Source: Ulvibacter algarum (lineage in GTDB: Bacteria; Bacteroidota; Bacteroidia; Flavobacteriales; Flavobacteriaceae). From it: a DNA stretch of 64,000 bases. A program made the translations under genes and the position numbers. Numbering within the stretch: the first letter of the stretch is position 1; the number at the start of each line of letters is the position of its first letter. The DNA lies in the NCBI GenBank assembly GCA_947488905.1, contig CANLBJ010000001.1:682001-746000 (forward strand), given 5' to 3'. Shown piece by piece: positions 3,853 to 19,290 of this stretch. The notes beneath the pieces are model-generated. The model saw only the letters and a program-made list of their open reading frames with translations. It did no database searches and was not told the origin of the DNA.

Positions 3853-4620
3853 TTACTCGTCTTCAAAAGCATTTTTTGAGCGTGTAGATTTCTCTTTAGC
3901 AATTTTAGGAACGCGACATTCCTTGATGTTTTTTAAATAATATGCGTATAATTCATTGGCGTCTGCGCCCATCCATTTTTTTATATAGATTGCCCAAAAG
4001 TGATACTGTACAAACCAAACACCTTTGTCTTCATACATTCTAGCAGATGTGCCTATCCATTCTTGAATGACCACAAATGTATCTCGTTTGTATAATTCAT
4101 TGATTAAAATGTTGTCTTCATAGATAATAAATGATTCATCAAAACCGCCTATTTCATTAAATAGCTCACGAGTTATAAACTGGCTCTGATCACCACCACG
4201 GCAGGCACGCCAAGAAAATTTAGTTAAGTAGCTAGCTAGTTTTAGCCACCAGTGGTCGCTATCAAATTTCATTTTAAAACAACCAGCAGGGTTCCCTTTT
4301 TTTACTTCGGAAATGATAAGTTTGTCAAAATTTTTAGGAGGAAAAGAATCTGCGTGTAAAAAGTATAAAATGTTTCCTGTGGCTTTTCTTGAACCGGTAT
4401 TCATTTGTTTTGCCCTTCCTCTTTCTGAAGAAATGGAGAGCAAATTAAAGCTAGACTTTTTAGCAAAAGCATCTATTAATTGTACGGTGTTATCTTGACT
4501 CCCGCCGTCTACAAGTATTATCTCTGCAATATTTTTTAAAGTTGCATTCTTTGTCAGGTTACTGAGCACAGAAGTAATGTTTTCTGCTTCATTAAGAACG
4601 GGGATAATAATACTAATCAT
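3853..4620 (-). CDS. GT2-family glycosyltransferase, TIGR04283 (arsenosugar-associated) type
   Basis: This is a 255-residue GT-A glycosyltransferase: N-terminal IIIPVLNEAENI, then LVDGGSQDNT and the metal-binding acidic motif FLHADSFPP near residue 90. Size and sequence fit the TIGR04283 group, which recurs next to ArsS in arsenosugar gene clusters. It is the last gene of the 15-kb minus-strand arsenosugar-type run, 104 bp beyond the second DUF547 gene. Its likely task is adding a group to the arsenical ribose, but the acceptor is inferred from context only. The gene contains one TTTCCGAAG motif (4305-4313). Confidence 0.75.
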   Translation of the reverse strand: MISIIIPVLNEAENITSVLSNLTKNATLKNIAEIILVDGGSQDNTVQLIDAFAKKSSFNLLSISSERGRAKQMNTGSRKATGNILYFLHADSFPPKNFDKLIISEVKKGNPAGCFKMKFDSDHWWLKLASYLTKFSWRACRGGDQSQFITRELFNEIGGFDESFIIYEDNILINELYKRDTFVVIQEWIGTSARMYEDKGVWFVQYHFWAIYIKKWMGADANELYAYYLKNIKECRVPKIAKEKSTRSKNAFEDE

Positions 4621-4724
4621 ATATGGTAAACTTACGCAAAACGTTTGAAAAAGGTTTTTAAGTTTTAGTAATAACTGTTGTTTTTAAATCTGGCAGATAC
4701 TAAATTTAGAATATTTCAGAAGTA

Positions 4725-5525
4725 CTATTGCTGCTCGTTTAAGTTCCAGTTATAATCTAAATACTCTAAGGTGGCGTTATTGTTTATTTTTACTTTACTA
4801 TACATATTAATGTAGCCTATTATGTCTTGCTCACCATCTACTTTAAAATCTTTAGGGTAAAATTTAAATATAGAAGAAAGCTTTGGGGTGCTTTTAGTCA
4901 ACTCGTTTTTTGAGCCGTTTATAAACTGCTTAGTGGCTAGCTCTAGTTGTTCATTAATGCTGCCTGCAGTATACGCTTCGTCCAATAATTTTGGGCAAGA
5001 AATGGAAGCACAATTTATCGCAAAATGAATACGAGGTTCATTCATTTTTCTGAGAATCCCATTCTCTATTCCGGCTAGTGGTAGCATTTTATTACCAATA
5101 GGAACATTAGCTCCTTTCCATACATTAGTTATATCTTTTATACTTTTTGTAGGGTAATTATTTATAATCGCATCTACCGTATAAGCGTTGTATACGTTAA
5201 TGTAATAGGCGAGTAGTTCTTGAACACTCCAGTCACTATCAGGTTGAAATGATGACATTTTTTGTAGGTATACATCAAGTGCTTCTTGGTCATTAATAAA
5301 CCCTTTATAATCTACAAGACCTTCTTTATTTACGTGCTTTTTAAGGAGTTTGTCCCAGTTGGAATGGTCTACATTTACGGCACTATTTGCGGTGGTAGAG
5401 GTTAATTTGCCTTCTACTTTTTTTATAGGACCTTGACTTATTAATCCCGCAGAAGATAACAGATTACAGCTTTGCAATGTGAAAACCGTTATTAAAATAA
5501 GGACTGTATATTTTATAAATTTCAT
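4725..5525 (-). CDS. DUF547 lipoprotein (downstream copy)
   Basis: This 266-residue lipoprotein has lipobox LQSC (Cys20). The DUF547 core covers residues ~60-260, with YYINVYNAYTVDAIINNYP, HFAINCASISCPKLLDEAY and a C-terminal LDYNWNLN. The conserved Asn-Cys-Ala-Ser and Ser-Cys-Pro cysteines suggest a papain-like or transglutaminase-like fold, but the biochemical role is not known. It is a tandem paralogue of the next gene upstream on the same strand and sits between it and the TIGR04283 glycosyltransferase. Work in the periplasm is inferred from the lipid anchor. Confidence 0.75.
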   Translation of the reverse strand: MKFIKYTVLILITVFTLQSCNLLSSAGLISQGPIKKVEGKLTSTTANSAVNVDHSNWDKLLKKHVNKEGLVDYKGFINDQEALDVYLQKMSSFQPDSDWSVQELLAYYINVYNAYTVDAIINNYPTKSIKDITNVWKGANVPIGNKMLPLAGIENGILRKMNEPRIHFAINCASISCPKLLDEAYTAGSINEQLELATKQFINGSKNELTKSTPKLSSIFKFYPKDFKVDGEQDIIGYINMYSKVKINNNATLEYLDYNWNLNEQQ

Positions 5526-5615
5526 TATTTATTGTTTTATAGAAAAATAGTTTAAACGCCTTTATTATAGGCATTGCTTAACAAAGGCTTAAGTAAGATT
5601 TAGTAAAAGTTTAGT

Positions 5616-6581
5616 CTACTTATTTAGCGCCCAGTTATAATCCATATAACGCACTTTTGCATCTTCGGAAATTTTAATTTCTGAAAATTTGTTTAAGAAA
5701 TCTATAAGGCTTCCGTTTTGTTTAAAATCTTTTGAAAACCATTTAAAGATATTTGAAATCTCTACGTTGTTTTCCGAAATCATATTTCGGCTTGAATCAT
5801 TGATAAACTTTTTTGCTACTAGATTAAGTTGCCCATCAACCTTGCTTGGTATAAAGGCTTCGTTTAATAATGGAGGGCAAGAAAAAGAGGCGCAATTAAT
5901 ACCAAAATGAATACGAGCATCTCCCATTTTACGTAGAATCTGGTGCTCTATTTCGTCAAGATTGTAATATTTTTCACCAAGTTTCCAGAGTCTTTGATCC
6001 CATGGGTTTTTAATATCTTTTATACTAGATAGGGGCTGGTTGCGCAAGATAAGGTCTATTGTCATCGCGTTATAAGCGTTCATCCAGTAAGCAAGTTTTT
6101 GGTTTTTGGTCCAGCTATGTTCTGGTAGGTTTTTACCTAAGGCTGCAATGTAAGCGAGTAGTGATTTGCGATTGCTTTTAAAACCATTGTAGTTTACATT
6201 ACCGGCACTTGACACATTGTTTTTTAAAAGGGTATTAAATGGTTTGTGTAGTTCTGTGTGATCTAAAACTGAGGTGTCAACCGTTGGTTCAACTTCAATT
6301 ATTTTAACAACAGTTGGTGTTGGTAGAGTAATATTTGGTGCTGTTTCGGCTTTAACAACGGGTGCTTTTATTTCTTGAGTAACCGGCGTTTTTGGTGTTT
6401 CTGCAATTGTAGCAATAGGTTGAGAGGTGCCTATTAATTTACCGTGACTTACGGTGGCTTTGCCTTCTGTTACTTGTGTGTTGTTTACTGTATTTTGTGC
6501 TGCGGTATCTTGCACTTGTTTTGCACTACAACAAGAAGTTGCTATGACAGCTGCTGTAATAAGTAAGGCGCTAAATTTCAT
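5616..6581 (-). CDS. DUF547 lipoprotein (upstream copy, with spacer)
   Basis: This 321-residue DUF547 lipoprotein starts at 6581, which places the lipobox ATSC right after the hydrophobic signal; the longer ATG at 6602 adds only seven residues. A low-complexity Thr/Val/Pro/Glu-rich spacer (~residues 25-100) separates the anchor from the DUF547 domain, unlike its neighbour. Core motifs match the paralogue: YWMNAYNAMTIDLILRN, HFGINCASFSCPPLLNEAF and MDYNWALN. The spacer suggests the domain reaches away from the membrane. It contains two copies of the TTTCCGAA motif (5663, 5771). Confidence 0.75.
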   Translation of the reverse strand: MKFSALLITAAVIATSCCSAKQVQDTAAQNTVNNTQVTEGKATVSHGKLIGTSQPIATIAETPKTPVTQEIKAPVVKAETAPNITLPTPTVVKIIEVEPTVDTSVLDHTELHKPFNTLLKNNVSSAGNVNYNGFKSNRKSLLAYIAALGKNLPEHSWTKNQKLAYWMNAYNAMTIDLILRNQPLSSIKDIKNPWDQRLWKLGEKYYNLDEIEHQILRKMGDARIHFGINCASFSCPPLLNEAFIPSKVDGQLNLVAKKFINDSSRNMISENNVEISNIFKWFSKDFKQNGSLIDFLNKFSEIKISEDAKVRYMDYNWALNK

Positions 6582-6663
6582 GATAGTATATGTTTCTGTC
6601 ATAGTAGTCGAAAGTATTGTTGTTACATTTCAAGAAACAAATTATCTAGCTCTTTTTTATAGT

Positions 6664-7545
6664 TTAGTCTTTAGTAAAAGGATATCCTTCTTGTCTTAAA
6701 AATGTCTTCGGAAATTTTTCATCTTCTTCAAAACCTAGTTCAATATCGCGACCATCGTAGGGTATGTGGTCTGTGTTAAATAGATAATCCCAGATGCTTA
6801 ACGAAATTCCATAATTTGCTCCATATTTACTCTTCTCTGGAAGCTCTTTTGCATGATGCCAAATATGCATTTTTGGATTATTAAATACATATTTTAAAAT
6901 ACCATAATCCCAGCCTAAATTAGCGTGATTTAAATGCCCAACAGTTAATGCAAAAAAGTGAACAATGGCCACTTGCTCTACCTGAAAACCACCAATAATT
7001 GCTAACGGAATATATAATATAGACTTGTAAACAATAGGTTCCATCCAGTGATATCTAAGGTGCGCTGCAAAGCCCATCTCTTTTACAGAGTGGTGCAGTT
7101 TATGAAAATTCCAGAGAAAGGGAAATCTATGTAATAAGCGGTGCGTATTCCATTGCACAAAATCTGAGACTAAAAAGAAGATTAATAATCCTACGCCAAA
7201 GGGTAGTGCATTTAAATCAAGAAGTTGAAAATCTTCTAAACTTAAATTTACAAAGCTAAGGGCGTCATTAAAGAGCATCTCTGTAGTGTTTGAAAGAAAA
7301 ATTAGGACAATAAGATTTAACAAAAAGAAATTGAAAAACATATAAAAAATGTCTTGCCAAAAATCTTTTCTAAATATTTTTTGGTCCTTTCTCCAAGGGA
7401 ACAGAATCTCTAAACCCCATACTACTAATGAAACAATGATTAAACCATAAAAGTAATTATCCCAGTGAAACGAAGTTATTTCGCTCAGTAAGTAATTAAA
7501 ATATCCTTGATAGGAATCTTTAAATAGGTCTATATATTTATTCAT
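6664..7545 (-). CDS. Sterol desaturase / fatty-acid hydroxylase superfamily membrane protein
   Basis: A 293-residue integral membrane di-iron protein. About four to five hydrophobic helices alternate with the histidine clusters of the superfamily: HRLLHRFPFLWNFHKLHHS around residue 130, HLRYHW, HLNHANLG, and HIWHHAKE near residue 230. Family members hydroxylate or cleave lipid substrates such as sterols, fatty acids and alkylglycerols. The stop lies 82 bp before the DUF547 gene, and its 5' end is 3 bp from the small membrane gene, indicating one operon. In this context a lipid-modifying step related to the arsenic pathway is possible but unproven. Confidence 0.8.
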   Translation of the reverse strand: MNKYIDLFKDSYQGYFNYLLSEITSFHWDNYFYGLIIVSLVVWGLEILFPWRKDQKIFRKDFWQDIFYMFFNFFLLNLIVLIFLSNTTEMLFNDALSFVNLSLEDFQLLDLNALPFGVGLLIFFLVSDFVQWNTHRLLHRFPFLWNFHKLHHSVKEMGFAAHLRYHWMEPIVYKSILYIPLAIIGGFQVEQVAIVHFFALTVGHLNHANLGWDYGILKYVFNNPKMHIWHHAKELPEKSKYGANYGISLSIWDYLFNTDHIPYDGRDIELGFEEDEKFPKTFLRQEGYPFTKD

Positions 7546-7548
7546 TTT

Positions 7549-7746
7549 TTACTTTTCAATTTTTTTATTTCTTCCTCTCATTATAGAGTATCCAGACAAA
7601 AATCCTGCAAGAAGCCAAATTAATCTAAAGGCCCAAACGTTTACTTCCATACCTAAAAATACAGTTGCAACTTCTGGGTGCATAAATGATTGAGCAATTT
7701 TATAACCGGCAACACCTATGATTATAAAAGAGAATATATGTTTCAT
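7549..7746 (-). CDS. Small two-helix membrane protein
   Basis: This 65-residue protein has two predicted transmembrane segments (FSFIIIGVAGYKI and FRLIWLLAGFLSGYSIM) and a basic C-terminus (RGRNKKIEK). It abuts the phosphorylase gene (stop at 7747, start at 7746) and the hydroxylase gene (3 bp), so it is translated as part of the same operon. I do not recognise a family. A helper subunit for the neighbouring membrane hydroxylase is a guess from position. Confidence 0.65.
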   Translation of the reverse strand: MKHIFSFIIIGVAGYKIAQSFMHPEVATVFLGMEVNVWAFRLIWLLAGFLSGYSIMRGRNKKIEK

Positions 7747-8559
7747 TTATAATTGTTTTATTAACTCTGTAAATAGCGTGATCATTTTTGGTTCTGCTTT
7801 ACCAGCCTGAGCAATGATATCTGGAATATCTACTGGTTTTAAGTTTTCTGGATCACACTCATCTGTTAATACAGAAAGTGCTGCAACAGGTAGACTTAAA
7901 TGATTAGCTACAATGATTTCTGGCACTGTACTCATCCCAACAGCATCTGTTCCTATTAATTTTAAATAACGGTATTCTGCCCTTGTTTCTAGTTGCGGGC
8001 CCACTACGCTTGTGTAAACACCTTTATGTAAATTGATGCCGTTCTCTTTTGCAATGGCTTCTAGCTTAGCATTCATATCTGCATCATAAGGAGCGCTCAT
8101 ATCTACAAAACGTTCACCTAGTTTTTCTACACCTTTAAACGCTAGGGGAGAACCTCCTTGCAAATTAATATGATCGTCAATAAGCATAATCTCTCCCTTT
8201 TTAAAAGCAGTGTTTATAGCACCAGAGGCATTACTCACTAGTAGTTTTTCAATACCTAATTGTCTCATTACACGCACCGGGAAGGTTACATCTTTTAATG
8301 AGTAGCCTTCATAAACGTGAAAGCGACCTTGCATTATAATTACCTTTTTACCAGCGAGCTCGCCAAAAATGAGTTTACCTTTATGAAACTCAACCGTTGC
8401 CGTAGGGAAGTTAGGTATGTGATTATAACTCATCTCTGCTTCTACGGTAACATCTTCTACAATTTTACCAAGTCCTGTACCTAGTATGATACCTACTTCT
8501 GGTTTTCCAAAACCTCTACTTTTTAAAAATTCTACTGCTTCTGTGATGTGTTTTTTCAT
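7747..8559 (-). CDS. Purine-nucleoside phosphorylase, adenine-type residue at the base site
   Basis: A 270-residue trimeric (class I) PNP: IILGTGLGKI at the N-terminus, MQGRFHVYEGY near 76-86, NASGAINTAFKKGE near 110, GPQLETRAEYR (Glu191) and GMSTVPEIIVANH. Aligning from Glu191 (human PNP Glu201) places Asp233 at human Asn243, the residue that selects 6-oxopurines; MTA phosphorylase, which takes adenine nucleosides, has Asp there. I therefore infer phosphorolysis of a 5'-modified adenosine. The gene lies 2 bp from the DUF2064 transferase gene. In the arsenosugar setting the substrate could be 5'-deoxy-5'-dimethylarsinoyl-adenosine. A housekeeping salvage role is the alternative. Confidence 0.85.
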   Translation of the reverse strand: MKKHITEAVEFLKSRGFGKPEVGIILGTGLGKIVEDVTVEAEMSYNHIPNFPTATVEFHKGKLIFGELAGKKVIIMQGRFHVYEGYSLKDVTFPVRVMRQLGIEKLLVSNASGAINTAFKKGEIMLIDDHINLQGGSPLAFKGVEKLGERFVDMSAPYDADMNAKLEAIAKENGINLHKGVYTSVVGPQLETRAEYRYLKLIGTDAVGMSTVPEIIVANHLSLPVAALSVLTDECDPENLKPVDIPDIIAQAGKAEPKMITLFTELIKQL

Positions 8560-8561
8560 AA

Positions 8562-9248
8562 TTATTTTTTTCTCAACTCTTCAGGGAAAAACCCTTGAAA
8601 AGCATCTATATTTTTAATGTCTTCGTAATAATCTACGTCATTTTTTTCATCTAATAACGCTACTTTTTCTTCTTTTAAATTTTTAAGTGTATCACTTAAA
8701 ACGGTATCTGTTCCCCATTTTTTATTGTAGAAAATGTCTGAATTAATCTTCTTCATTCCTAATAAATAATACCCACCATCTTCTGCTGGTCCTAGCACAA
8801 AATCATCTGTTTTTAGTTGCTCAAAAGCATTGTCAATATCGTTTGCCGTCATATCATACATATCACTACCTATGATGATTGCACGCTCGTAACCTAAGTT
8901 AAAAACTTCTTTAAAAGCATTTTCCATACGCACACCTAGATCATCGCCGTGTTGTATTTTTTTACTGTACACGACTGGGTCCCAAAGATCTTCACTTCTT
9001 AGTTTTACAGAATAATATACAAATTTATCAGCTCTTAAAGGTGAGGTTATCGCTACCGTATGTTTTAATAAAAACTTGTAAATATCAAGGGCAGCCTCAT
9101 CACCAACGGTAGCTGCTAGTCTTGTTTTGCATTTACCTAATTCTGGATTACGGGTAAAAATAATAAGCGCATTTTTTGAAGTAGGATAGTGAAAGGTTTC
9201 TTCTTCTTTACCCTGCTCATCACTTGTTTTTAGTCCTAAAATTGCCAT
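8562..9248 (-). CDS. TIGR04282-type (DUF2064) GT-A transferase, arsenosugar-associated
   Basis: This 228-residue GT-A-fold protein carries the nucleotide-binding signature FTRNPELGKCKTRLA at residues 31-45, then IIIGSDMYDM as the metal/nucleotide motif and GPAEDGGYYLLGM. These define the TIGR04282 group, repeatedly found beside ArsS. Activity as a nucleotidyl- or glycosyltransferase on an arsenical ribose is inferred. It sits between rhodanese (14 bp upstream) and phosphorylase (2 bp downstream), consistent with a single transcript. A second, divergent member lies at 16977-17699. Confidence 0.8.
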   Translation of the reverse strand: MAILGLKTSDEQGKEEETFHYPTSKNALIIFTRNPELGKCKTRLAATVGDEAALDIYKFLLKHTVAITSPLRADKFVYYSVKLRSEDLWDPVVYSKKIQHGDDLGVRMENAFKEVFNLGYERAIIIGSDMYDMTANDIDNAFEQLKTDDFVLGPAEDGGYYLLGMKKINSDIFYNKKWGTDTVLSDTLKNLKEEKVALLDEKNDVDYYEDIKNIDAFQGFFPEELRKK

Positions 9249-9262
9249 ATTGCTATATTACA

Positions 9263-9775
9263 TTATTCGCTTTGATTCGGGTATACTTTTATTCCTTTAT
9301 CAAGCCATTTGCTCCACGCCTTAGAGAAGGCATGAACGCTGTCTGTATTTTTGTTATGTCTATTTAAAATAGGGTACTCTTTATTTTTCCACTCAAAGAT
9401 ACCACCATACAAGTTTTGTACATTAGTGAATCCTGCTTTTTTTAATTTTTCGCCCACAATTTCAGATCTAATACCTAGGGAGCAATACACAATAATGGGA
9501 GTGTCTTTATCTTTAATAACTTCGGAAATTTGCTCGCTTGAAAAATGGTTAAATCCAGTAAAAATTGCTCCGTCTATGTGGCTTACTTTAAACTCGTCAT
9601 CTTCTCGAGTATCAAGAATAGTAACGTCACCATTTACTTGTAACATTCTTAATTCTTCTACAGAAATATATGGTATGCTGCGAGTGTTGTATTGGTTTAA
9701 TAAGTGATCAAGTGTTTTTTGAGCATAGCTTTGACTAGCAAAAAGCAGTAATAATATGTAGATATATTTAATCAT
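9263..9775 (-). CDS. Exported single-domain rhodanese
   Basis: This is a 170-residue protein with a signal peptide (cleavage near SYAQ) and one rhodanese domain. The active-site Cys98 lies in VYCSLGIRSE, preceded by the CH2-like LDTREDDEFKVSHIDGA motif. Rhodaneses transfer sulfane sulfur or act on thiols and oxyanions; related folds include arsenate reductases of the Cdc25 type. The gene is 2 bp from the metallophosphoesterase gene and 14 bp from the DUF2064 gene. A periplasmic thiol/arsenic redox role is plausible, but the loop length alone does not prove it. Confidence 0.8.
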   Translation of the reverse strand: MIKYIYILLLLFASQSYAQKTLDHLLNQYNTRSIPYISVEELRMLQVNGDVTILDTREDDEFKVSHIDGAIFTGFNHFSSEQISEVIKDKDTPIIVYCSLGIRSEIVGEKLKKAGFTNVQNLYGGIFEWKNKEYPILNRHNKNTDSVHAFSKAWSKWLDKGIKVYPNQSE

Positions 9776-9777
9776 TT

Positions 9778-10605
9778 TTAAATTCTAATTCCAAAACCTT
9801 GCATTCCACTTTCTACAGCGGGTAAAATTTCTGTATTATCCCATATACCGGTAACTATTGTTCTAGCATATTCTTGGGGCAATAGTCCATTTTGCATTAA
9901 CTGGCTTGTTAATTTATAATTGTATTGCATTGTATAATGTGATACAATCATCTTGCCATCTTTTTCTTCTAAAATAGCATACCACACATGGGGTTCTCCA
10001 TCATTTGCTGGCATACCAATCACGCCAGGATTAATCCATTGTTTATTATCATTAACGTCATTAAAAGGCAACCCGCAATGCCCAGCTATTATCACATCAC
10101 TTTTGGTCGTGTTTAAAACTGCTTCCTTTCTGTCCCAAGGTGTGCTTTTAAATATAAATTCTGAAATATTATCATAAGAACCATGTACCACGGTAATGGC
10201 ATTCCCGGAGTAAGAAAACTGAATGTGATCTGGAAGTTTTTCTATATAATCTAAAGAGTTTTTACTCAACTGACTCTGAGCATACGGATACCACATTTGA
10301 GAAAAGCCATCACAACGACTTCCTTCTCTAAAATCGCAACCACAGTCTTCTGCACCTTCTGTTAACTGCACTTCTACATTGCCAGCAATACTATGAGCGC
10401 CCCATAATTTTAAGAGTTGAACGGTCTCTTCTGGTTGCGCACAATAGCCTACAATGTCGCCAGTGCAGATGCAATTTTCTGGTGCAATGTTTTGCGCTTC
10501 AGAAATCTGCTTGAGTTTTTCTAATGCTTGTAAATTACTGTAAACACCTCCAAAAAGAAGTGTTTTTCCAGTTAGTTTCCCGATCTTTTTTATTTTTTTA
10601 TCCAC
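9778..10605 (-). CDS. Degenerate, cysteine-rich calcineurin-like metallophosphoesterase
   Basis: The protein has 275 residues from the GTG at 10605, which overlaps the symporter gene by 16 bp; a GTG at 10659 would overlap by 70 bp. The YfcE/MJ0936-like fold is recognisable: GGVYSNLQAL, CTGDIVGYCAQP (Asp51), GNVE (Asn76), VVHGS (His141), GHCGLPF (His176) and INPGVIGMP. The usual DxH is G20-V-Y22, GNH(D/E) reads GNVE, and GHxH reads GHCG, so several metal ligands are missing, including the DxH pair and the final His. Seven cysteines (45, 47, 55, 88, 90, 98, 177) lie near these loops. A thiol ligand set or arsenical binding is inferred, not shown. Confidence 0.7.
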   Translation of the reverse strand: MDKKIKKIGKLTGKTLLFGGVYSNLQALEKLKQISEAQNIAPENCICTGDIVGYCAQPEETVQLLKLWGAHSIAGNVEVQLTEGAEDCGCDFREGSRCDGFSQMWYPYAQSQLSKNSLDYIEKLPDHIQFSYSGNAITVVHGSYDNISEFIFKSTPWDRKEAVLNTTKSDVIIAGHCGLPFNDVNDNKQWINPGVIGMPANDGEPHVWYAILEEKDGKMIVSHYTMQYNYKLTSQLMQNGLLPQEYARTIVTGIWDNTEILPAVESGMQGFGIRI

Positions 10606-11927
10606 GATGGTATCAAATATAATAGTATGCAACTTAAAATCCCCCAGACATTTACCCACAATAAGTCTGCGTATTTTCCTTCTGTAAAAATGAGCGAATC
10701 TGGAAACATTTTAAAGACTAATAAAAACCCAAAAAAGAGCCCGCAAATAACACTTAAGTGAAAACTAATTTTAGGGACTTCTTTTTTCCAAAACAAAAAT
10801 ACTGGTGTTAGTCCTATGACCATGGTTCCAGAAATGGTGGTAGCACTTAATATTTCTGCATCTAGAAAAACAGGGATGGTACCTAGTATTGCAATTGCTG
10901 CCATAGATGCTCTACCAAAGGTTAGATAATTTCCCATCTTTAAATCTACTGAGAGTAGTTTTGAAAAAGAAGAGAATGTAGAATCTAATGTAGAGGCAGC
11001 AGAGGTTATCATTATAAAGTTAATCACTAATAAAATCACTACACCAAAGGCTTTACCAACCTCTACAGCTGCTTGTCCTTTCATCCCTTGAGTTTGTGCA
11101 TAGACACCAATTAAACTAAAGAGAACAATGCAAATAGCGCCAATGACACTTGCCCATAAAAAGCTTTTGCGTGTCACTTTTGGCGAAGTGATAAAAGCAC
11201 GGTCTGTTAACACCGGATCGTGAAAAGGATAACTAAATGATTGAATGATAGCAGCAAAAAATAAGTTAAGCCCTAGCTCAAAACTCCAAACTCCAGATAC
11301 AGCAGCTTCTTTTACGGTAAAGTCTCCTTCAGAAAAAATGACACCTAGAATAATCATTAATAACACAGAGAATAAAACCATCTGTATTACATCTGTAAAT
11401 ATAGAACTGCTGAGTCCTCCTTTAATAGCGTAAGCTAATGTGAGAATAGTAAAAACAAGTATCGCCCAATAATAAGAACTACTCCCAGATTCTCCAAAAT
11501 AGGAGCCAATGACCATCGTGTTACTCCATACTTCATTAAAAAGCCTAATAGAAATTAAGATAGAAAAAATGGCCATCGCACTTTTACCAAAACGTGTGGT
11601 CAAAAAATGATGAATACTAGTAAAGCCACCTTCTACACGCATTTTATATAATACAATACCCGCAACAGCAAATGACAAATAATACCCAGCATAGGCAACA
11701 CCACCTACAATACCATAATCAAGACCAAGGTTTGCAGCGTTAGTAATACTCTTTGCAAAAATCCAAGAAATGATAAGGCTACCTGTAAGCCATAGTGCAC
11801 TGGGAGCTTTCTTTTTATGGTTTGCTTTAAAAAAAGCAGCTGGAGTTTTTGCCCAAGGAGACAGAAAAAATAGTATCAAACTTGATACTATAATTAAGCC
11901 CCATTGTAAGTTTATTGTTTCAAACAT
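10590..11927 (-). CDS. Sodium/solute symporter (SSS family)
   Basis: A 445-residue inner-membrane protein with about 12-13 hydrophobic helices and typical SSS features: SLIISWIFAKSITNAANLG in the first helices, the YAIKGGLSSSIFTDVIQ segment after helix 5, and SAASTLDSTFSSFSKLL near residue 310, the Na+-site helix with Ser/Thr. The substrate cannot be read from sequence. Position in the arsenosugar-type operon, overlapping the phosphoesterase gene and downstream of SusD, suggests it moves the compound imported by SusCD or exports the product. Confidence 0.8.
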   Translation of the reverse strand: MFETINLQWGLIIVSSLILFFLSPWAKTPAAFFKANHKKKAPSALWLTGSLIISWIFAKSITNAANLGLDYGIVGGVAYAGYYLSFAVAGIVLYKMRVEGGFTSIHHFLTTRFGKSAMAIFSILISIRLFNEVWSNTMVIGSYFGESGSSSYYWAILVFTILTLAYAIKGGLSSSIFTDVIQMVLFSVLLMIILGVIFSEGDFTVKEAAVSGVWSFELGLNLFFAAIIQSFSYPFHDPVLTDRAFITSPKVTRKSFLWASVIGAICIVLFSLIGVYAQTQGMKGQAAVEVGKAFGVVILLVINFIMITSAASTLDSTFSSFSKLLSVDLKMGNYLTFGRASMAAIAILGTIPVFLDAEILSATTISGTMVIGLTPVFLFWKKEVPKISFHLSVICGLFFGFLLVFKMFPDSLIFTEGKYADLLWVNVWGILSCILLYLIPSWIKK

Positions 11928-11982
11928 TTTTTATTGCTCAGCTATTGTTAATTGTTATTATTTTAATATTCCATCTTTTTTT

Positions 11983-12090
11983 GGACGTTTTGAGCCACGA
12001 CAGATCGCTTCGCTCACTGCACGATACAAGATTAAAAATTTAGTCGTGATTCGTGTAGCGCCTTTGGTGCGGTCGTGGTTCAAACCGTCC
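11983..12090. repeat. Long imperfect inverted repeat downstream of susD
   Basis: The ends are complementary: GGACGTTTTGAGCCACGAC at 11983 pairs with GTCGTGGTTCAAACCGTCC ending at 12090. Shorter nested pairs (CACGA/TCGTG, GCGCC/GGTGC) lie inside. It starts 5 bp beyond the susD stop. A related hairpin lies between susC and susD at 13559-13636. It may act as an mRNA processing or attenuation structure, or be a mobile intergenic repeat. Confidence 0.7.
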
Positions 12091-12095
12091 CTTTT

Positions 12096-13544
12096 TCAAT
12101 CCTCATTCCACCATACGGGTGCGTTTATGCTATTGCCATTTGTAGCTGCTGCCGCTTGATTATAATTGTCTGCATTTAATGCTTCTTCTTCTGCAGGGTA
12201 TGGCATTCTTACAGGAATTAACCCATTATTCAAACTTGCTGAAATATCTAGAAACTCCGGGAATCCTGTTCTTCTGTATTCTATCCAACCCTCATAACCG
12301 TTAATGATTTGTGCAATCCATTTTTGCGTTACAATCTGCTTGATGGGAGTGGCGTTTGCATCGTTAAATGCTGCGGGACCTGTTAAGTAATCTGCTGGCA
12401 ATTCTGTTTGCCAGTATTCAAAAGCCTGTGTCACTCCTGTTTCATATAATGTTTGTGCATCTGCAGTGATGAGGTTTCTTGCTGCTGCTTCTGCTAGATT
12501 TAAGCTTGTTTCCCAAGCTGTGATAAAGTTTGCGTCTAGCGTAGAGGTGTCTTCTCTAAAAGTGGTTCCAGCTAGTGATAATCCTGCAAGCTCAATAGAG
12601 GTGCTAGAGGCGTCAATACCGTTTATTAAACCTGTAAACTCTGTACCGTTTGAGTTTGCAGTGGGTCTAAAAAAGGTTTCAATTCTCGTGTCGTTCAAAT
12701 CTTCTAAAACCGTTTCCATAGTTTCAGAAAGCACGAAGTTGTTAAAATCTCCAACTCTTAATTGAGCGAGTCTAAAGCTATTAGGGTCGGTGTTCGTGAA
12801 ATTAAAAATGGCATTCTCTGAGTTTGAAGTTATAAAATTTCCGTCGTCATAAATAGCTTGTAGCTCTGCGCTCACATCTACCTTTCCCGAAATACGCAAA
12901 AGATGCTTAATGCGTAATGAATTTGCAAAACGAACCCAGCCGTTTAAATCTCCATTAAAGAGAATATCGCCTTCAAGTGGTATCACGTCATCATAGGCTT
13001 CAATTACAGCAATACCTTTGTTTAAGTTGTCAAGAATCCCTCCGTCTGCTTGATAGATATCTTCTTGTAAATCATAACTAGGAGTCACATCGCCGTTTAC
13101 ACCATTAAAGGCTTGACTATACGGTACATCGCCAAACATATCTGTTAGGCCTGCTGCCATATATGCTTTTAAGATGAGGGCAGGGCCTTCATAAACTGCT
13201 GCGGTTTCAGTAGTTCTTGCCGTGTTTAGAATAATCTCGTTGTCTCTTAGGTTTGTGTAAAAAACAGGCCAAGGGTTTCCGCCTAATTGTGGCGATTTTA
13301 AAGCGTGACGATCAAAAAGATTAAAATCTAATGCCGTTCTGTGTTGTGATAAAAGATCGCCAGCCACAAAACCTTCATAGCTCATTTGCTCTCCAAAATC
13401 ATAAATGACTTGGCGTAAAAGCAAACTAGGTTGTACACTGTTTGGTGCATTAGGGTTTGTGTTCGTTTCTTCAAAATCTGCTGTGCAACCAGAGATCACT
13501 AAAAGTAGCGATAGGGTGCAAAGTATATATATTATTTTTTTCAT
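12096..13544 (-). CDS. SusD/RagB-like nutrient-binding outer-membrane lipoprotein
   Basis: This 482-residue surface lipoprotein has lipobox VISGC. The ATG at 13544 is preferred to the one at 13574, which lies inside an intergenic inverted repeat. The sequence fits the SusD-like_2 group: NTNPNAPNSVQPSLLLRQV near the N-terminus, ILKAYMAAGLTDMFGDVPY, WVRFANSLRIKHLLRISG, and C-terminal Q-K-W-I-A and GYEGWIEYRRTGFP helices of the TPR scaffold. It pairs with the SusC porin encoded just upstream. The ligand is unknown; most SusD proteins bind glycans, while this subgroup also includes proteins outside glycan loci. Confidence 0.9.
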   Translation of the reverse strand: MKKIIYILCTLSLLLVISGCTADFEETNTNPNAPNSVQPSLLLRQVIYDFGEQMSYEGFVAGDLLSQHRTALDFNLFDRHALKSPQLGGNPWPVFYTNLRDNEIILNTARTTETAAVYEGPALILKAYMAAGLTDMFGDVPYSQAFNGVNGDVTPSYDLQEDIYQADGGILDNLNKGIAVIEAYDDVIPLEGDILFNGDLNGWVRFANSLRIKHLLRISGKVDVSAELQAIYDDGNFITSNSENAIFNFTNTDPNSFRLAQLRVGDFNNFVLSETMETVLEDLNDTRIETFFRPTANSNGTEFTGLINGIDASSTSIELAGLSLAGTTFREDTSTLDANFITAWETSLNLAEAAARNLITADAQTLYETGVTQAFEYWQTELPADYLTGPAAFNDANATPIKQIVTQKWIAQIINGYEGWIEYRRTGFPEFLDISASLNNGLIPVRMPYPAEEEALNADNYNQAAAATNGNSINAPVWWNED

Positions 13545-13558
13545 CTTCTTATGTTTTT

Positions 13559-13636
13559 GGACGGTTTGACTCACGATCGCTAGTAGAGCTAGTTACACGA
13601 CTAATAAATTCTTTTTAGTCTTGATTCAAAACATCG
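13559..13636. repeat. Inverted repeat between susC and susD
   Basis: GGACGGTTTGACTCACGAT at 13559 resembles the left arm of the repeat at 11983-12090, and GATTCAAAACATCG near 13623-13636 is roughly its complement. It occupies almost the whole susC-susD gap (13545-13654). It could modulate susD expression relative to susC. Confidence 0.6.
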
Positions 13637-13654
13637 TATTTCTAATCGTCTTTT

Positions 13655-16600
13655 TTAAAAGTCAATTCCTAATTTAAACCCTATACTTCTACTTGTGGCA
13701 TAACTCATATCTTCTACACCACTCACAAAGCCATTGCCTTGTACAGCTAACTGTTCTGGATCAAAATGCGGGTTTTCTGTAATAGCAAACAGGTTGCGCC
13801 CTAAAAGACTTACGTTGACGTCTGCCCCTTCTTCTAAGCCTAAAAATCCTTTATTTGTAGCAAAACTATAGCCAATAGAAAACTGTCTTAACTTTAAATA
13901 ACTCGCGTCATATACATTGTTTTCTTCGTGATTACGATCATAAAATTGACGATAATAGCTTTCTGCAGATATTGCATTTGTATTAGGTACGTAGTTTGGA
14001 TTATCTGCAGTACCTGTGTTTACAACACCTTCTGCAATAATACCGCCGTCAGGCCTGTTAGATGTTTCTGCAAGTTGTCCACCTACATTTCCTAAGGCAC
14101 TGGTTCTAGATACGATTTCTCCACCTTGACGCCAGTCTAATAGAAAGTTTACATTCCAGTTCTTATAACTAAAATCATTGCTCCATCCTAACATGAAATC
14201 TGGGTTGTAGTTTCCTAGTTTTTGTAGCTCGTTATCAGCAATAAAGTTTCCGCTATCGTCAATGATAAAGTCGCCATTATCGTTTTTTAAATATCCAGTT
14301 CCATAAAAATCTCCTATGCGACCGCCTTCTTCTACTTGAAACCAGACCGTCTGGTTTGCGCTGTCATAAATACGGCTGTATGCTAATGTTAACCTTCCGT
14401 CGCTTTGCGGTAAATCTTCTACAACAGCTTTGCTTGTGCTAAAATTGAATGTTGAGTTCCATCTAAAGTCATCATTGATAACTGGAGTAAGTCCTGCTAT
14501 AATCTCTAGCCCTTTTGCGCTTACTTGTCCACCATTGACTACTTGCTCATTATAACCAGAAGATACTGCGATAGGTAATGAGATAATCTGGTCTTTAGTA
14601 ATGGCATTGTAATAAGAAACGTCAAAGTTTAAACGGTCTTTTAAGAAACGTACATCAAAACCAACTTCATAATTAGTTACCTGTTCTGGTCTTAAACTTG
14701 AATTTGGTATTGAGCTTTGGTCACTAAAAGTAGGCTGTCCGTTAAAAGGAGTCTGAGATATAAATGCTCCAGAAGTTTGGTAAGGATTTGTATCGTTACC
14801 TACTTGTGCTACACTTGCTCTTAATTTTGCAAAAGAGATGATGTCTGGTAAATCTGTAACATTAGACAAAATAAAAGAAGCAGAAATAGATGGGTAAAAG
14901 AATGATACGTTCTCTTTAGAAGTAGGAGTTGCTAATGCGCTAGACCAATCATTTCTACCAGTGATGTCTACGTATAAAAAGTCTTTGTAGCCCAGTTTTG
15001 CAATCCCGTATAAAGAGTTTATTTTCTTTTCAGAATCAAATTGAAACGCCTCTATAGGAGATGCTGCATTGTTTAAATTAAAAATACCCGGCTGTGCGAG
15101 GTTAACAGTTTGTAGTTGTTTTGTAGAAGCTGTTTGGTTCAGACTATTACCTCCTACGGAAATATCAAAACTAAAATCTTGAAGCTGCTTTTTATAATTT
15201 AGTAAAAAGTCTGTGTTTATTTCTCTGAAGAAAACATCGTGTTCTGCATATCCTCCATTTTGAAAACGGTTGCTACTAAAAGCACGTCTCAATTGTCTTT
15301 TTTCTGAAGAGTAATCCATTCCTGTGCGAAGGGCAATGCTAAATGCTTCTGTGAATTGGTGTTTTAAACTAATGTTTCCGAAGAGACGATCACGATTAAA
15401 ACTGTTTCTATTCTCGTTAAGGATAAAGAATGGATTGTCAAAAAAAGTGTAGTTAAAAGAGTTTTGCTGTACACCTTCAAGACCTGGTTGCCAGTAGTCG
15501 CGTAAGCTATTAATATCTAGAGAGCGAGGTCCCCAAGCTACTAATGAGTAGTTTGCATTCTCGCTACCATACCCATTAGATGGACGGTTATCACTACTAG
15601 AATTTACATAACTAATACTCGTGTTAATTGTCGTTTTTTCTGAAGGTTCAAAGTGCAGTTTTGCAGCGGCAGTCTGTCTGTCAAGATTTACCCCTGGAAT
15701 AATAGCTTCACTTCTTAGGTCTGTAAAAGACAGTCTATAGTTACCGTTACCAAAACCGCTTGCAATAGAAGCGTTATTAATAGTTGTGACACCAGTTTGA
15801 TAAAAATCTTTAAGGTTGTCAGGGTGCGAATTAAAAGCAGTTGGAGTGATAGGAAGCCCACTATATAATGAGGTGTCACCACCGCGAACCACAGTGCCGT
15901 CTGGTAAAACCACTGGCGAGTCAAACTGCGGAATCAATAATCCTTGGTCTAATCTTGGTCCCCAAGAATACGTGATATTATCATTAACACCGCCACCTAA
16001 GCCATCTACATACTCAAACTGACCAGAGTTTCCTTGACCATATTCGTTTTGAAAATCTGGTAATCTAAAAGCAGTATCTACAAAAAGAGAGGTGTTAATG
16101 CTAATACCCATTCCTTTATTATTTGCTCCATCTTTTGTTTCTATGACAATAACTCCGTTAGCTGCTCGTGTTCCATAGAGTGCAGCAGCACTTGCTCCTT
16201 TGAGTACCGTAACACTTTTTATGTCATCTGGATTTACATCCATCGCTCCATTACCAAAATCAATTTCTTGAAATCCTGCTGCAGCTTCGTTTGTAAAATT
16301 AAAAACCGTCTGGTTATTAATAGGGGTGCCGTCTATCACAAACAATGGATTGTTATTACTAAAAGATGCTTCACCTCTAATGGTAATTTTACTTGAAGAC
16401 CCAACACCCGTAGCTCCTTGAGATATAGAAACACCGGCTAGTTTTCCAGAAAGATTGTCTAGAAAATTAACTGCTTTGACTTCGTTTATTTCTTCTGCTG
16501 TTAGCGCTTGAACTACGTACCCTAGTTCTTTTTCGCGACGTTTAATACCTAGTGCTGTGATCACAACTTCGTCAAGTGATTCTTGAGATACGGGTAGGGT

Positions 16601-16873
16601 TACAAATATGCTACTTTGATTTGTGTACGTGTATTCTAAGGTAGAATATCCTATTGCAGAAAAGCTAAGAATGGAGCCAGAAGGCGGTGCTATCATTGAG
16701 AAGTTTCCGTCAATGTCTGACGTTGTTCCTTGTGTGGTGCCTTTGATAATAATATTTGCAAAGGGAATAGGTTCTTGGTCTTGGGCACTTGTTATGATAC
16801 CAGAGACACTAGTTTGAGAGTAGCCCATTGCGGTGCATAAAAGCAGCAATGTGACAATATATAATTGTTTCAT
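13655..16873 (-). CDS. SusC/RagA-type TonB-dependent transporter
   Basis: A 1072-residue outer-membrane transporter: signal peptide (MGYSQ), a CarboxypepD_reg-like domain (~residues 22-105, SGIITSAQDQEPIPFANI), a plug beginning near ALGIKRREKELGYVVQ with IRGEASFSNNNPLFVIDG and VLKGASAAALYGTRAANGVI (the SusC-family hallmark), then a 22-strand barrel ending GFKLGIDF. It partners SusD downstream. Both sit inside the arsenosugar-type run, between the symporter and the DUF2064/ArsS pair, so import of a substrate for that pathway is plausible. A 103-bp gap separates it from the DUF2064 stop. Confidence 0.92.
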   Translation of the reverse strand: MKQLYIVTLLLLCTAMGYSQTSVSGIITSAQDQEPIPFANIIIKGTTQGTTSDIDGNFSMIAPPSGSILSFSAIGYSTLEYTYTNQSSIFVTLPVSQESLDEVVITALGIKRREKELGYVVQALTAEEINEVKAVNFLDNLSGKLAGVSISQGATGVGSSSKITIRGEASFSNNNPLFVIDGTPINNQTVFNFTNEAAAGFQEIDFGNGAMDVNPDDIKSVTVLKGASAAALYGTRAANGVIVIETKDGANNKGMGISINTSLFVDTAFRLPDFQNEYGQGNSGQFEYVDGLGGGVNDNITYSWGPRLDQGLLIPQFDSPVVLPDGTVVRGGDTSLYSGLPITPTAFNSHPDNLKDFYQTGVTTINNASIASGFGNGNYRLSFTDLRSEAIIPGVNLDRQTAAAKLHFEPSEKTTINTSISYVNSSSDNRPSNGYGSENANYSLVAWGPRSLDINSLRDYWQPGLEGVQQNSFNYTFFDNPFFILNENRNSFNRDRLFGNISLKHQFTEAFSIALRTGMDYSSEKRQLRRAFSSNRFQNGGYAEHDVFFREINTDFLLNYKKQLQDFSFDISVGGNSLNQTASTKQLQTVNLAQPGIFNLNNAASPIEAFQFDSEKKINSLYGIAKLGYKDFLYVDITGRNDWSSALATPTSKENVSFFYPSISASFILSNVTDLPDIISFAKLRASVAQVGNDTNPYQTSGAFISQTPFNGQPTFSDQSSIPNSSLRPEQVTNYEVGFDVRFLKDRLNFDVSYYNAITKDQIISLPIAVSSGYNEQVVNGGQVSAKGLEIIAGLTPVINDDFRWNSTFNFSTSKAVVEDLPQSDGRLTLAYSRIYDSANQTVWFQVEEGGRIGDFYGTGYLKNDNGDFIIDDSGNFIADNELQKLGNYNPDFMLGWSNDFSYKNWNVNFLLDWRQGGEIVSRTSALGNVGGQLAETSNRPDGGIIAEGVVNTGTADNPNYVPNTNAISAESYYRQFYDRNHEENNVYDASYLKLRQFSIGYSFATNKGFLGLEEGADVNVSLLGRNLFAITENPHFDPEQLAVQGNGFVSGVEDMSYATSRSIGFKLGIDF

Positions 16874-16938
16874 TAAAGTTGTGGTTTGTCTGTTTTATCG
16901 CAGTCGATAACTTCAGTTTATGAGTGAAGTTTTAATGG

Positions 16939-16960
16939 CCTCTCGACTACGCTCAAGGGG
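16939..16960. repeat. Short TCGACTACGCTCAAG intergenic repeat
   Basis: The motif TCGACT-n-CGCTC lies in the 103-bp gap upstream of susC. The same core recurs at 57487-57500 (TCGACTTCGCTCAA) and, in reverse orientation, inside pdhC at 32137-32158. It looks like a small dispersed repeat. Confidence 0.5.
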
Positions 16961-16976
16961 ACATGGTTCTGTAGTT

Positions 16977-17699
16977 TTAAGAACAAGACAAAGGAGAACC
17001 TTTATTGAAGTATATTTTTTGCTGAAATGTGCTGTATTGAAAAGCAGTAGTCTCGAGTATTAATATTTCCGAAGAAAAAATAGCGCGAAGTACTTTTAAT
17101 ATGGCTTCAGAAATTTTATGAAAACCATCAAAGAGGCTTTTAGCATCTGTAATAGTATCAATGTCTTTAAGGCGCTTGAGGAGCACCACTTCTGTTTTAT
17201 TTTTAGTAAGTAGTTGAGAAATACTTTTTGTTAGCTTAGTCGTTTGCCAAGGTAGTTTTAAGAATAACTCTGCGTTAAATTGTGACTTGTTAATCCCTAA
17301 TAAATAATACCCTCCATCACGTGAAGGCCCTAGAACAATCTCATTTTTTTCAAGCGTTTTTGCCGCTTTTAAAATTTGTTTCGTTTTTAAATTCGGGGTA
17401 TCATTACCAATGGTAATCACATTATCAAACCCTTTTGCGTACACCTGCTCAATGGCATTTGTGTAGCGCTCACCAAAAGAGTTCCCTCTTTGTTGTGCTT
17501 CGGAAAAATGAAAATAGGGGAGACCCGTATTTTCAACTTTAGCTATGGTCTGTTTGTTGAGTTGGTTAAAAAGTACAGCCGATTTAAAGAAGGGTTTTGA
17601 GATTCCCTCTTGTTTGCCAGATTGGGCAAAGATTAATATGGCTGTTTTTTGATTAATGGTTTTAAGTTTTATGATTAATCTACTACCGTCCCTTGACAA
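16977..17699 (-). CDS. Divergent DUF2064 (TIGR04282-like) protein
   Basis: This 240-residue relative of the transferase at 8562-9248 keeps ITIGNDTPNL and VLGPSRDGGYYLLGINKSQFN but lacks the N-terminal GKxKTRL nucleotide-binding signature (it reads FAQSGKQEGISKPFF). The likely start is TTG at 17699, overlapping arsS by 25 bp; no ATG exists before the first domain strand. A ~45-residue C-terminal tail beyond the usual end contains a TTTCCGAAG motif (17066). It is translationally coupled to ArsS, so a role in the same pathway is likely, but catalytic competence is doubtful. Confidence 0.7.
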   Translation of the reverse strand: MSRDGSRLIIKLKTINQKTAILIFAQSGKQEGISKPFFKSAVLFNQLNKQTIAKVENTGLPYFHFSEAQQRGNSFGERYTNAIEQVYAKGFDNVITIGNDTPNLKTKQILKAAKTLEKNEIVLGPSRDGGYYLLGINKSQFNAELFLKLPWQTTKLTKSISQLLTKNKTEVVLLKRLKDIDTITDAKSLFDGFHKISEAILKVLRAIFSSEILILETTAFQYSTFQQKIYFNKGSPLSCS

Positions 17700-18751
17700 C
17701 TACTACCTGCACCTGCGGTACAACCGTAACAGTGTTGTGAGATCATTATGTTTCTATCGTTTAATAGGTCTTCGTTGTAGTCGTTAATGTGTTTAACTTT
17801 ACTTGCAACAGGTAGTTTTAACATTTGGTTAAAATCACAATCGTACAGAAAGCCGTCCCAAGAAATTGAGATTGAGTTTGTACACATTACATTGCTAACT
17901 GCAGCAGGATTGTATGCTTCTACAAGCTGGTACATATAGTCTTCATAATTTTCACTTGCGATGAGGTAATCAAGAAAACGTGCAATAGGTAAGTTTGTAA
18001 TTGCAAATAAGTTGTGAAAACGGATATCAAAATCTTCTAATAAAGCTGCCTTCATTTCTTTTTCCATGCTTGCTTGGTCTCCCGGAAGGTATGCGCCATT
18101 AGGGTTGTAAACCAAATCTAAACGCAAACCACTATCTGGCATTCCGTACCCTCTTTCATTTAACTCTTGTAGTGCTTTTATGCTTAAGTCAAATACACCT
18201 TCACCACGTTGCTTGTCAGTCTTACCTCTAGTCCAGTGAGGCATAGAGCTTACTACGTGTATATTGTGTTTTTTAAAGAAGTCTGGTAAATCGTAGTATT
18301 TTTTATTGGCTCTAATAATTGTAAGATTACTTCGCACTATAAAATCTTTGATACCGGCTTTGCTTGCTTCTTCTACAAACCTTCTAAAGTGAGGGTTCAT
18401 CTCTGGAGCACCACCTGTAAGGTCTAGCGTATGAGCTCCTGTGTTTTTTATCACCTCAAGACATTGCTCCATAGTTTCCCATGTCATAATCTCTTGACGG
18501 TCTGGACCTGCATCTACGTGACAGTGCTCACAAACTTGATTACACATATAGCCTACATTAATTTGTAGAATTTCTAGCTTTTTAGGGCGTAGCGGTAATT
18601 GGTTTGTCTCTTTTATTTTTTGAGCAAAGGTTGGCAATTCTCCATTTGCAAAAATCCCATTGCTTAATATCTCTACTTGACGTTTTGCATTAGCAAGTTC
18701 TGCGTCTCGTTTTTGTAGTGATTGTTGTTTCTTTTTCTTTTCTTTAATCAT
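17675..18751 (-). CDS. arsS: Arsenosugar biosynthesis radical SAM protein ArsS
   Basis: A 358-residue radical SAM enzyme with the [4Fe-4S] motif C70-x3-C74-x2-C77 (CNQVCEHCHVDAGP), a glycine-rich DLTGGAPEMNP and the C-terminal CYGCTAGAGSSCQG that marks the TIGR04167 group. In that group the last Cys is selenocysteine in some bacteria; here the codon is TGT. ArsS is known from cyanobacteria to join a SAM-derived 5'-deoxyadenosyl group to dimethylated arsenic. The Lys-rich N-terminal helix (residues 1-30) is an addition of unknown use. It is the second gene of the minus-strand run, downstream of the peroxidase-like gene. Confidence 0.92.
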   Translation of the reverse strand: MIKEKKKKQQSLQKRDAELANAKRQVEILSNGIFANGELPTFAQKIKETNQLPLRPKKLEILQINVGYMCNQVCEHCHVDAGPDRQEIMTWETMEQCLEVIKNTGAHTLDLTGGAPEMNPHFRRFVEEASKAGIKDFIVRSNLTIIRANKKYYDLPDFFKKHNIHVVSSMPHWTRGKTDKQRGEGVFDLSIKALQELNERGYGMPDSGLRLDLVYNPNGAYLPGDQASMEKEMKAALLEDFDIRFHNLFAITNLPIARFLDYLIASENYEDYMYQLVEAYNPAAVSNVMCTNSISISWDGFLYDCDFNQMLKLPVASKVKHINDYNEDLLNDRNIMISQHCYGCTAGAGSSCQGTVVD

Positions 18752-18899
18752 AGTTCCTTTTCTAGTAAAAGTATTCGTATTCTAATATTTCAGAAGAAAT
18801 TAATGTTGTCTTTGTCGCTCTTTTTTTGAAAAAGATTTGTCGCATAAATTGACTTAGGTATTAGCGACATCTAAGATTTTTTAAAAACTAAGAGCCTGC

Positions 18900-19238
18900 T
18901 TACATTTCTAGTTTATTCACTTTATTCATCATCATTGTTCCATGCACAAGCGTAGCTCCACTTTTTATTGCAGCTCCTACGTGGATGGCTTCCATCATTT
19001 GTTCTTTAGTGACACCTCTTTGCAGAGTGTCTTTTGTGTATGCATCTATGCAATAAGGACATTGCTCTGTGTGAGCAACAGCGAGTGCTATTAATGCTTT
19101 TTCGCGTGCTGTCAACGCTCCTTCTTCAAAGACTTTACCGTAGTAATCAAAAAATTTGTTGCCTAGTTCTTCGCTCCATTCAGTGATTTTTCCAAATTTG
19201 CGTAAATCTGCAGGGTCGTAATAATTGTTAGATGCCAT
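18900..19238 (-). CDS. Arsenosugar-associated AhpD/peroxidase-like protein
   Basis: A 112-residue carboxymuconolactone-decarboxylase-family protein with the AhpD-type redox motif C60-P-Y-C63 (EQCPYCIDAYTKD) and the helix MEAIHVGAAIKSGATLVHG. It matches the small TIGR04169-type protein found beside ArsS. The start at 19238 (MASNNYYDP) is preferred over 19259, which lies in an inverted repeat. It likely handles a thiol or peroxide step, but its substrate is unknown. It is probably the first gene of the arsenosugar run; 148 bp separate it from arsS. Confidence 0.85.
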   Translation of the reverse strand: MASNNYYDPADLRKFGKITEWSEELGNKFFDYYGKVFEEGALTAREKALIALAVAHTEQCPYCIDAYTKDTLQRGVTKEQMMEAIHVGAAIKSGATLVHGTMMMNKVNKLEM

Positions 19239-19251
19239 AATGTTTTTATAT

Positions 19252-19290
19252 ACGAGCAAAACTCGTTTAAGGTTTGAACTAATTGCTCGT
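19252..19290. promoter_or_regulatory. Inverted repeat upstream of the arsenosugar run
   Basis: ACGAGCAA at 19252-19259 is repeated in inverted form as TTGCTCGT at 19283-19290, and ACGAG-N5-CTCGT forms a second, tighter repeat at 19252-19266. Next to the right arm, the minus strand reads TATATTTA, one base from the TAnnTTTG -7 element. This would place the repeat between promoter and start, as an operator or leader hairpin. No regulator gene is adjacent. Confidence 0.4.

Follow-up and report, generated by a model that had tools for sequence, protein, structure and literature searches.

An arsenosugar-type operon without ArsM and a putative import cassette in Ulvibacter algarum

Within a 64,000-nucleotide stretch of the Ulvibacter algarum genome (contig CANLBJ010000001.1, positions 682,001 to 746,000), referred to here as the window, a run of minus-strand genes forms an arsenosugar-type operon that contains the radical SAM arsenosugar enzyme ArsS, lacks the methyltransferase ArsM and carries a five-gene cassette encoding a SusC/SusD pair, a symporter and two degenerate proteins. 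On a tree of ArsS loci, the cassette and the loss of ArsM evolve in a correlated fashion. We put the chances at about even that the operon runs on an imported methylated arsenical, which would make ArsM dispensable. An original prediction, made from the sequence of the window alone, had already raised import as a possible source of methylated arsenic; the association of the cassette with ArsM loss now speaks for that idea, import itself being what we infer from it.

Absence of ArsM from an otherwise complete operon

Gene identities were assigned using NCBIfam profiles with curated cut-offs, together with Pfam. All of the open reading frames (ORFs) that the original prediction had placed on one strand, signature and non-signature genes alike, were present in the ORF list of the window at the predicted positions, on the minus strand and in one run, and the profile matches confirmed their identities. 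ArsS (17675 to 18751; TIGR04167, 428 bits against a cut-off of 300), its partner, an AhpD-like thiol oxidoreductase with a CxxC motif (18900 to 19259; TIGR04169, 190 bits against 120), and a family-2 glycosyltransferase (3853 to 4620; TIGR04283, 225 bits against 182) all exceeded their cut-offs, and the original prediction of an arsenosugar-type locus was right. The AhpD-like ORF extends to 19259 from a TTG codon, and 19238 is a plausible start for the gene.

The prediction that no ArsM is present held when we searched the whole genome, which is listed as 100% complete, with the profiles for canonical ArsM (NF008823) and arsenosugar-type ArsM (NF038099). The best NF008823 match scored 47 bits, where the cut-off is 263, and NF038099 had no match in the genome at an E value of 1e-60. 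A protein BLAST search of the genome with the arsenosugar-type ArsM returned only a weak match, to the very ORF that gave the best NF008823 match. This ORF, the best candidate for an ArsM elsewhere in the genome, was read as a UbiE/MenG-type methyltransferase and rejected. ArsM, which together with ArsS marks an arsenosugar locus, was therefore found neither in the operon nor in the genome.

Comparison of gene neighbourhoods showed that 14 of 22 ArsS regions encode a 322-amino-acid methyltransferase missing from the window, which corresponds to arsenosugar-type ArsM (NF038099, 569 bits against a cut-off of 400). Two sister species, Patiriisocius marinus and P. marinistellae, carry this gene within the same operon, between those for the purine-nucleoside phosphorylase (PNP) and a fatty-acid hydroxylase, or more exactly between a 65-amino-acid ORF and the hydroxylase gene. 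The corresponding interval of the window holds the 65-amino-acid ORF only. This ORF also occurs in relatives, and tblastn detected no remnant of a decayed ArsM in the gap. Most simply, ArsM has been lost from an otherwise complete operon.

The ArsS residues C70, C74, C77, C290, C305, C341, C344 and C352, which include the radical SAM CxxxCxxC motif and the C-terminal cysteines, were present in all 81 sequences, and both CxxC cysteines of the AhpD-like protein in all 68. Identity to P. marinus was 93% for ArsS and 99% for AhpD, the highest among the 15 genes compared, a hemerythrin-like neighbour excepted; dN/dS ratios are indicative at most, as dS was saturated or not computable. No ArsS residue separated the ArsM-bearing from the ArsM-less class (largest frequency difference, 0.67), and the idea of an altered ArsS substrate in ArsM-less species was dropped. 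Given this lack of class-specific residues and the close identity to the ArsM-keeping P. marinus, the substrate of ArsS is probably the same in both classes.

Distribution of the cassette and loss of ArsM

Operon structures were compared across 21 relatives from an order sample together with another 60 regions, of which 49 had been selected for carrying the cassette and 11 lack it. The operon resolved into two modules. The core module consists of AhpD-ArsS-rhodanese-TIGR04282-PNP-ArsM-fatty-acid hydroxylase-DUF547-TIGR04283, with losses and order changes among relatives, and the cassette module of degenerate TIGR04282-SusC-SusD-symporter-phosphoesterase. In the 49 cassette regions, the cassette was complete in 45, the symporter and phosphoesterase were present in 49 and SusC and SusD in 46; ArsS was found in 48, ArsM in 18 and a called AhpD in 44 (uncalled in the other five). 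A compact form, in which the cassette immediately precedes ArsS and the rest of the core is missing, also occurs among relatives. We then scanned named genomes with two short patterns. Among the best 80 of 228 relatives, which are the most window-like, 70 loci had full flanks; all 70 contained the symporter, phosphoesterase, ArsS, AhpD, PNP and TIGR04282 genes, 65 contained SusC and SusD, and 34 contained ArsM. In 20 cassette-negative, ArsM-positive regions, some of them cut by contig ends, AhpD was found in 18, ArsM in 15 and PNP in 14. Because the gene order recurs in relatives, the run is not a chance arrangement, and the non-signature genes, whose absence near ArsS in relatives had been named beforehand as evidence against the prediction, were present there. 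The prediction had also taken the membrane and envelope genes as a whole to indicate a product beyond a free sugar. A lipid-linked product is not supported by these genes: they fall into two separable modules, of which the cassette tracks ArsM loss.

In the order sample (246 genomes), 22 genomes had ArsS over the cut-off and 17 had NF038099, every one of them ArsS-positive. The cassette phosphoesterase, counted at 55% identity or more, was found in six genomes, all with ArsS, and two of these carriers (G188 and G218) belong to a family other than that of the window; another 17 genomes, whose matches were weak (32% identity or less), were left uncounted. In the family sample (397 Flavobacteriaceae genomes), ArsS was present in 288, NF038099 in 226 and the cassette marker in 51, all 51 with ArsS. 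That 225 of the 226 genomes with arsenosugar-type ArsM carry ArsS, often in the same operon, bears on whether this branch of ArsS might act on a non-arsenic substrate. No biochemistry of flavobacterial members was found in the open-access literature that we searched (most subscription journals and preprints lie outside its scope), which leaves room for such a substrate, but the near-constant pairing with ArsM makes it highly improbable.

Canonical ArsM was tested in the 63 ArsS genomes of the family without NF038099 and exceeded the cut-off in 19, comprising 18 of 33 cassette-negative genomes and one of 30 cassette-positive genomes. In the latter (G362, contig 1, 464811 to 465596) the gene contains one in-frame stop, which is consistent with recent loss. 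Thus, 45 ArsS genomes were without an intact ArsM of either kind, 30 with the cassette and 15 without it, compared with 21 and 222, respectively, among the other 243 ArsS genomes (Fisher odds ratio 21, p = 2.3e-16). Restricting the analysis to genomes at least 90% complete reduced the ArsM-less set from 45 to 38, 29 with the cassette and nine without. A genus-level hand count gave the same direction: NF038099 was absent from 13 of 37 cassette genera and from 15 of 148 other ArsS genera (p = 5e-4). These counts also bear on the possibility that the pathway is decaying in the window species, ArsM having gone first and the rest being about to follow. The gap at the sister-species position of ArsM would fit such decay, but we regard it as very unlikely: the remaining operon genes are intact ORFs, ArsS and AhpD stay as close to P. 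marinus as described above (with dN/dS only indicative), and the 13 cassette genera without arsenosugar-type ArsM, eight of which are represented by two species each, point to a stable state.

To examine whether the association survives on a phylogeny, we fitted models of trait evolution to a tree of ArsS from 121 genomes, of which 54 carry the cassette and 67 do not. It includes 50 of the 51 family cassette genomes, four of the 15 genomes with neither ArsM nor cassette and, at the same fraction as the latter, 59 of the 222 ArsM-bearing genomes that lack the cassette; G150, G188 and G218 were coded as ArsM-lacking, canonical ArsM being untested there. By parsimony, ArsM changed 21 times on this tree and the cassette 15 times. 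The dependent model was preferred over the independent one both when NF038099 alone was scored (likelihood ratio 20.7, p = 4e-4) and when any tested ArsM was scored (likelihood ratio 29.2, p = 7e-6), and none of 93 simulations under independence reached 29.2 (mean 4.3, maximum 11.0). The fitted rate of ArsM loss was 12.3 with the cassette and 0.31 without it, although single rates are imprecise and some lie at their bounds.

Cassette proteins and the case for import

The cassette encodes a SusC/RagA TonB-dependent outer membrane transporter (13655 to 16873; TIGR04056, 600 bits against 368) and a SusD-like lipoprotein (12096 to 13574; PF12771, SusD-like_2, 283 bits) whose Cys30 was kept in 52 of 52 sequences, so that by family profiles the locus has a SusCD pair. 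These are followed by a sodium:solute symporter (SSS) family protein (10590 to 11927; PF00474, SSF, 33 bits), the distant PDB matches of which are SLC5 transporters (best E value, 9e-5), and by a Cys-rich metallophosphoesterase-like protein (9778 to 10659, the real start probably lying nearer 10605; PF12850, Metallophos_2, 40 bits against 27; PDB 3rqz, E value 2.5e-11). With 3rqz and 2kkn as structural comparison, the phosphoesterase proved to be degenerate, as predicted: it has GGVYSN, GNVE and GHCG in place of the DxH, GNH and GHxH motifs. Among 14 homologues from other loci, DxH and GHxH were present in all 14, GNH in nine and GNY in five. The cassette protein retains D68, N94, H159 and H194, and we take the losses to mean that one metal site is deprived of its ligands and that the catalytic histidine has gone, while the other metal site is left. 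Judged by these residues, hydrolysis is unlikely. Of its cysteines, C73, C106, C108 and C116 were found in 55 of 55 cassette phosphoesterases, C63 in 53 and C195 in 52, and a putative thiol site for trivalent arsenic would be a fitting idea. The five GNY homologues (L095 to L099) are distant and keep DxH and GHTH; they are possible intermediates toward the cassette form.

The remaining cassette gene (16977 to 17699) and a core gene (8562 to 9248) had been predicted to encode two DUF2064/TIGR04282-type proteins. This was borne out for the core protein, which is CofC-like, has an intact KTR motif and scored 214 bits against a cut-off of 134. By contrast, the cassette copy is degenerate and could not be kept as a full member of the family: it scored 111 bits, its match was limited to model positions 70 to 188, and it is without the N-terminal KTR motif. 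KTR was absent from all 51 cassette-type ORFs that cover the N-terminus (56 copies, five of them called too short), whereas all 60 copies of the other type carry KTR or KKR. The degenerate protein was rejected as a cassette-only marker, since it also occurs at the cassette-less ArsS loci G039, G072, G109, G206 and G236.

Because the cassette tracks ArsM loss, the SusCD pair, symporter and phosphoesterase are better read as importing a substrate than as handling a product. In the route that we propose, a methylated arsenical in short supply, in the simplest case algal dimethylarsinate, would cross the outer membrane through TonB-powered SusC/SusD and the inner membrane through the symporter. 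The Cys-rich phosphoesterase and the CxxC-bearing AhpD-like protein would reduce it to, or hold it as, dimethylarsenic(III), which ArsS would join to a 5′-deoxyadenosyl group. PNP would then remove adenine from the adenosyl-arsenical, the KTR-type TIGR04282 protein may activate a sugar phosphate, and the TIGR04283 protein would transfer it to give a glycoside. A ready-made supply of methylated arsenic would have allowed ArsM to be lost in the window species. We infer the transported cargo, the hand-off, the product and each step after ArsS. For the ArsS reaction itself we rely on the sections of PMC12159101 that treat it, which cite Cheng 2021.

Alternatively, the cargo could be intact arsenosugars of algae or the head groups of arsenolipids, to be rebuilt or degraded, instead of a simple methylated arsenical. 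SusCD systems usually take ligands the size of a sugar or bigger, and the marker loci among the best 80 of 228 relatives come from genera including Polaribacter, Leeuwenhoekiella and Winogradskyella, which are often alga-associated. Arsenosugars are present in microalgae (PMC10456119). However, ArsS is kept in all 51 cassette genomes, which would be needless if the bond between arsenic and sugar came ready-made, and the phosphoesterase has lost residues needed for catalysis. We consider this alternative unlikely.

Several observations weigh against import of a methylated arsenical. The usual cargo of SusCD is larger than dimethylarsinate, SusCD was missing from five of the 70 named loci and three of the 49 cassette regions, and the weak best PDB match of the symporter is a choline transporter. 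The CGC motif formed by C106 and C108 is common to the five GNY homologues outside the cassette, so it is older than the cassette, as is part of the distinctiveness of the phosphoesterase. The tree is one of ArsS loci, not of species. The fitted rate of ArsM gain, as imprecise as the other rates, was also higher with the cassette (8.1) than without it (3.4); the cassette thus accompanies quicker ArsM turnover in both directions, with the balance moved toward loss. Finally, 21 cassette genomes of the family also have NF038099, so that the cassette is more than a substitute for ArsM, and the 15 ArsS genomes with neither kind of ArsM nor the cassette (nine at least 90% complete) imply that ArsS can persist without either or that other methyltransferases exist. 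These last two groups would fit a non-arsenic cargo of the cassette (a sugar, for instance, or an acceptor), with ArsM lost since dimethylarsenic leaks in unaided. Leakage alone, however, does not predict an approximately 40-fold higher fitted loss of ArsM with the cassette, and we hold this explanation, too, to be improbable.

A broader proposition, somewhat less probable than not, is that marine flavobacteria own an uptake system dedicated to methylated arsenic and driven by TonB and sodium, with the Cys-rich phosphoesterase repurposed as an arsenic reductase or carrier. Arsenic would then be a nutrient for a cell component, and ArsM-less species would use methylated arsenic from phytoplankton or ArsM-bearing neighbours.

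The pathway itself is already known; its frequency in the family and the putative import cassette may be new. Cyanobacterial work reportedly provides an example of the ArsM-ArsS route, and Cheng 2021 is said to be the source for the ArsS reaction. The operon shares with this route the same ArsS family over the cut-off and, in relatives, NF038099 ArsM; it differs in the absence of ArsM from the window and in the cassette, PNP, DUF547 and fatty-acid hydroxylase genes. The HpnH/HpnG route to ribosylhopane likewise proceeds by radical SAM adenosyl transfer and subsequent adenine removal, with hopene rather than arsenic as the acceptor, and the HpnH profile weakly matched ArsS (31 bits). The operon also resembles the loci by which Bacteroidota take up nutrients through SusCD, in that an inner-membrane carrier gene adjoins those for SusC and SusD, but it is without a recognised glycan-degrading enzyme, is tied to ArsS and contains the degenerate phosphoesterase. 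The bisenarsan and arsinothricin clusters are also bacterial organoarsenic biosynthesis loci, with other C-As chemistry and no uptake cassette described in the parts of PMC12159101 concerned with them. On arsenosugars in flavobacteria, the open-access literature that we searched yielded a review of algal foods. It contained no report of the frequency of the pathway in the family or of the import cassette, and nothing linking dimethylarsin- compounds with TonB-dependent transport or arsM with Polaribacter, which is weak evidence of novelty. With ArsS in 288 of 397 family genomes, the making of organoarsenicals may be a normal trait rather than an oddity. For cells in general, uptake of small organoarsenicals is described as a largely unknown step in the relevant part of a review (PMC12608789). 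If the cassette does import methylated arsenic, it would supply genes for this step in bacteria and link the algal and bacterial arsenic cycles, and the purpose of arsenosugars would become testable by transporter deletion.

Remaining genes of the operon and its relatives

The PNP gene (7747 to 8559; TIGR01700, 298 bits against 293), the core TIGR04282 gene, a rhodanese-domain gene (9263 to 9775; NF045521, 205 bits against 145) and the phosphoesterase gene lie 2 to 14 bases apart, and, as called, the ORF of the phosphoesterase overlaps that of the symporter, an operon-like arrangement. As no other TIGR01697-type PNP was found in the genome, that of the operon may have two roles and serve as the housekeeping enzyme as well. 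The 65-amino-acid membrane ORF (7549 to 7746), which the original prediction did not include, had no match in Pfam and was found by tblastn in five of 81 other regions. It is followed by the fatty-acid hydroxylase superfamily gene (6664 to 7545; PF04116, FA_hydroxylase, 94 bits) and by two DUF547 genes (5616 to 6602 and 4725 to 5525; both PF04784), each encoding a probable lipoprotein. All of these genes lie on the minus strand.

In 21 of the 22 ArsS regions AhpD was an ORF of its own, and in the remaining one it was joined to the phosphoesterase. Fusion frames of this kind, 409 to 442 amino acids in length, occurred in nine of the 51 cassette-bearing genomes of the family (loci L141, L145, L146, L149, L150, L153, L154 and L157 and the G201 region) and may represent a single inherited event. 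In three loci of one genus (L249, L252 and L140), ArsS is 52 to 55% identical to that of the window and adjoins a DUF547 gene; no TIGR04169-like neighbour of ArsS was detected there. Downstream of ArsS, the G102, G109, G167 and G201 regions share a family of approximately 204 amino acids, and the member that was scanned, from G102, is a TetR-type regulator.

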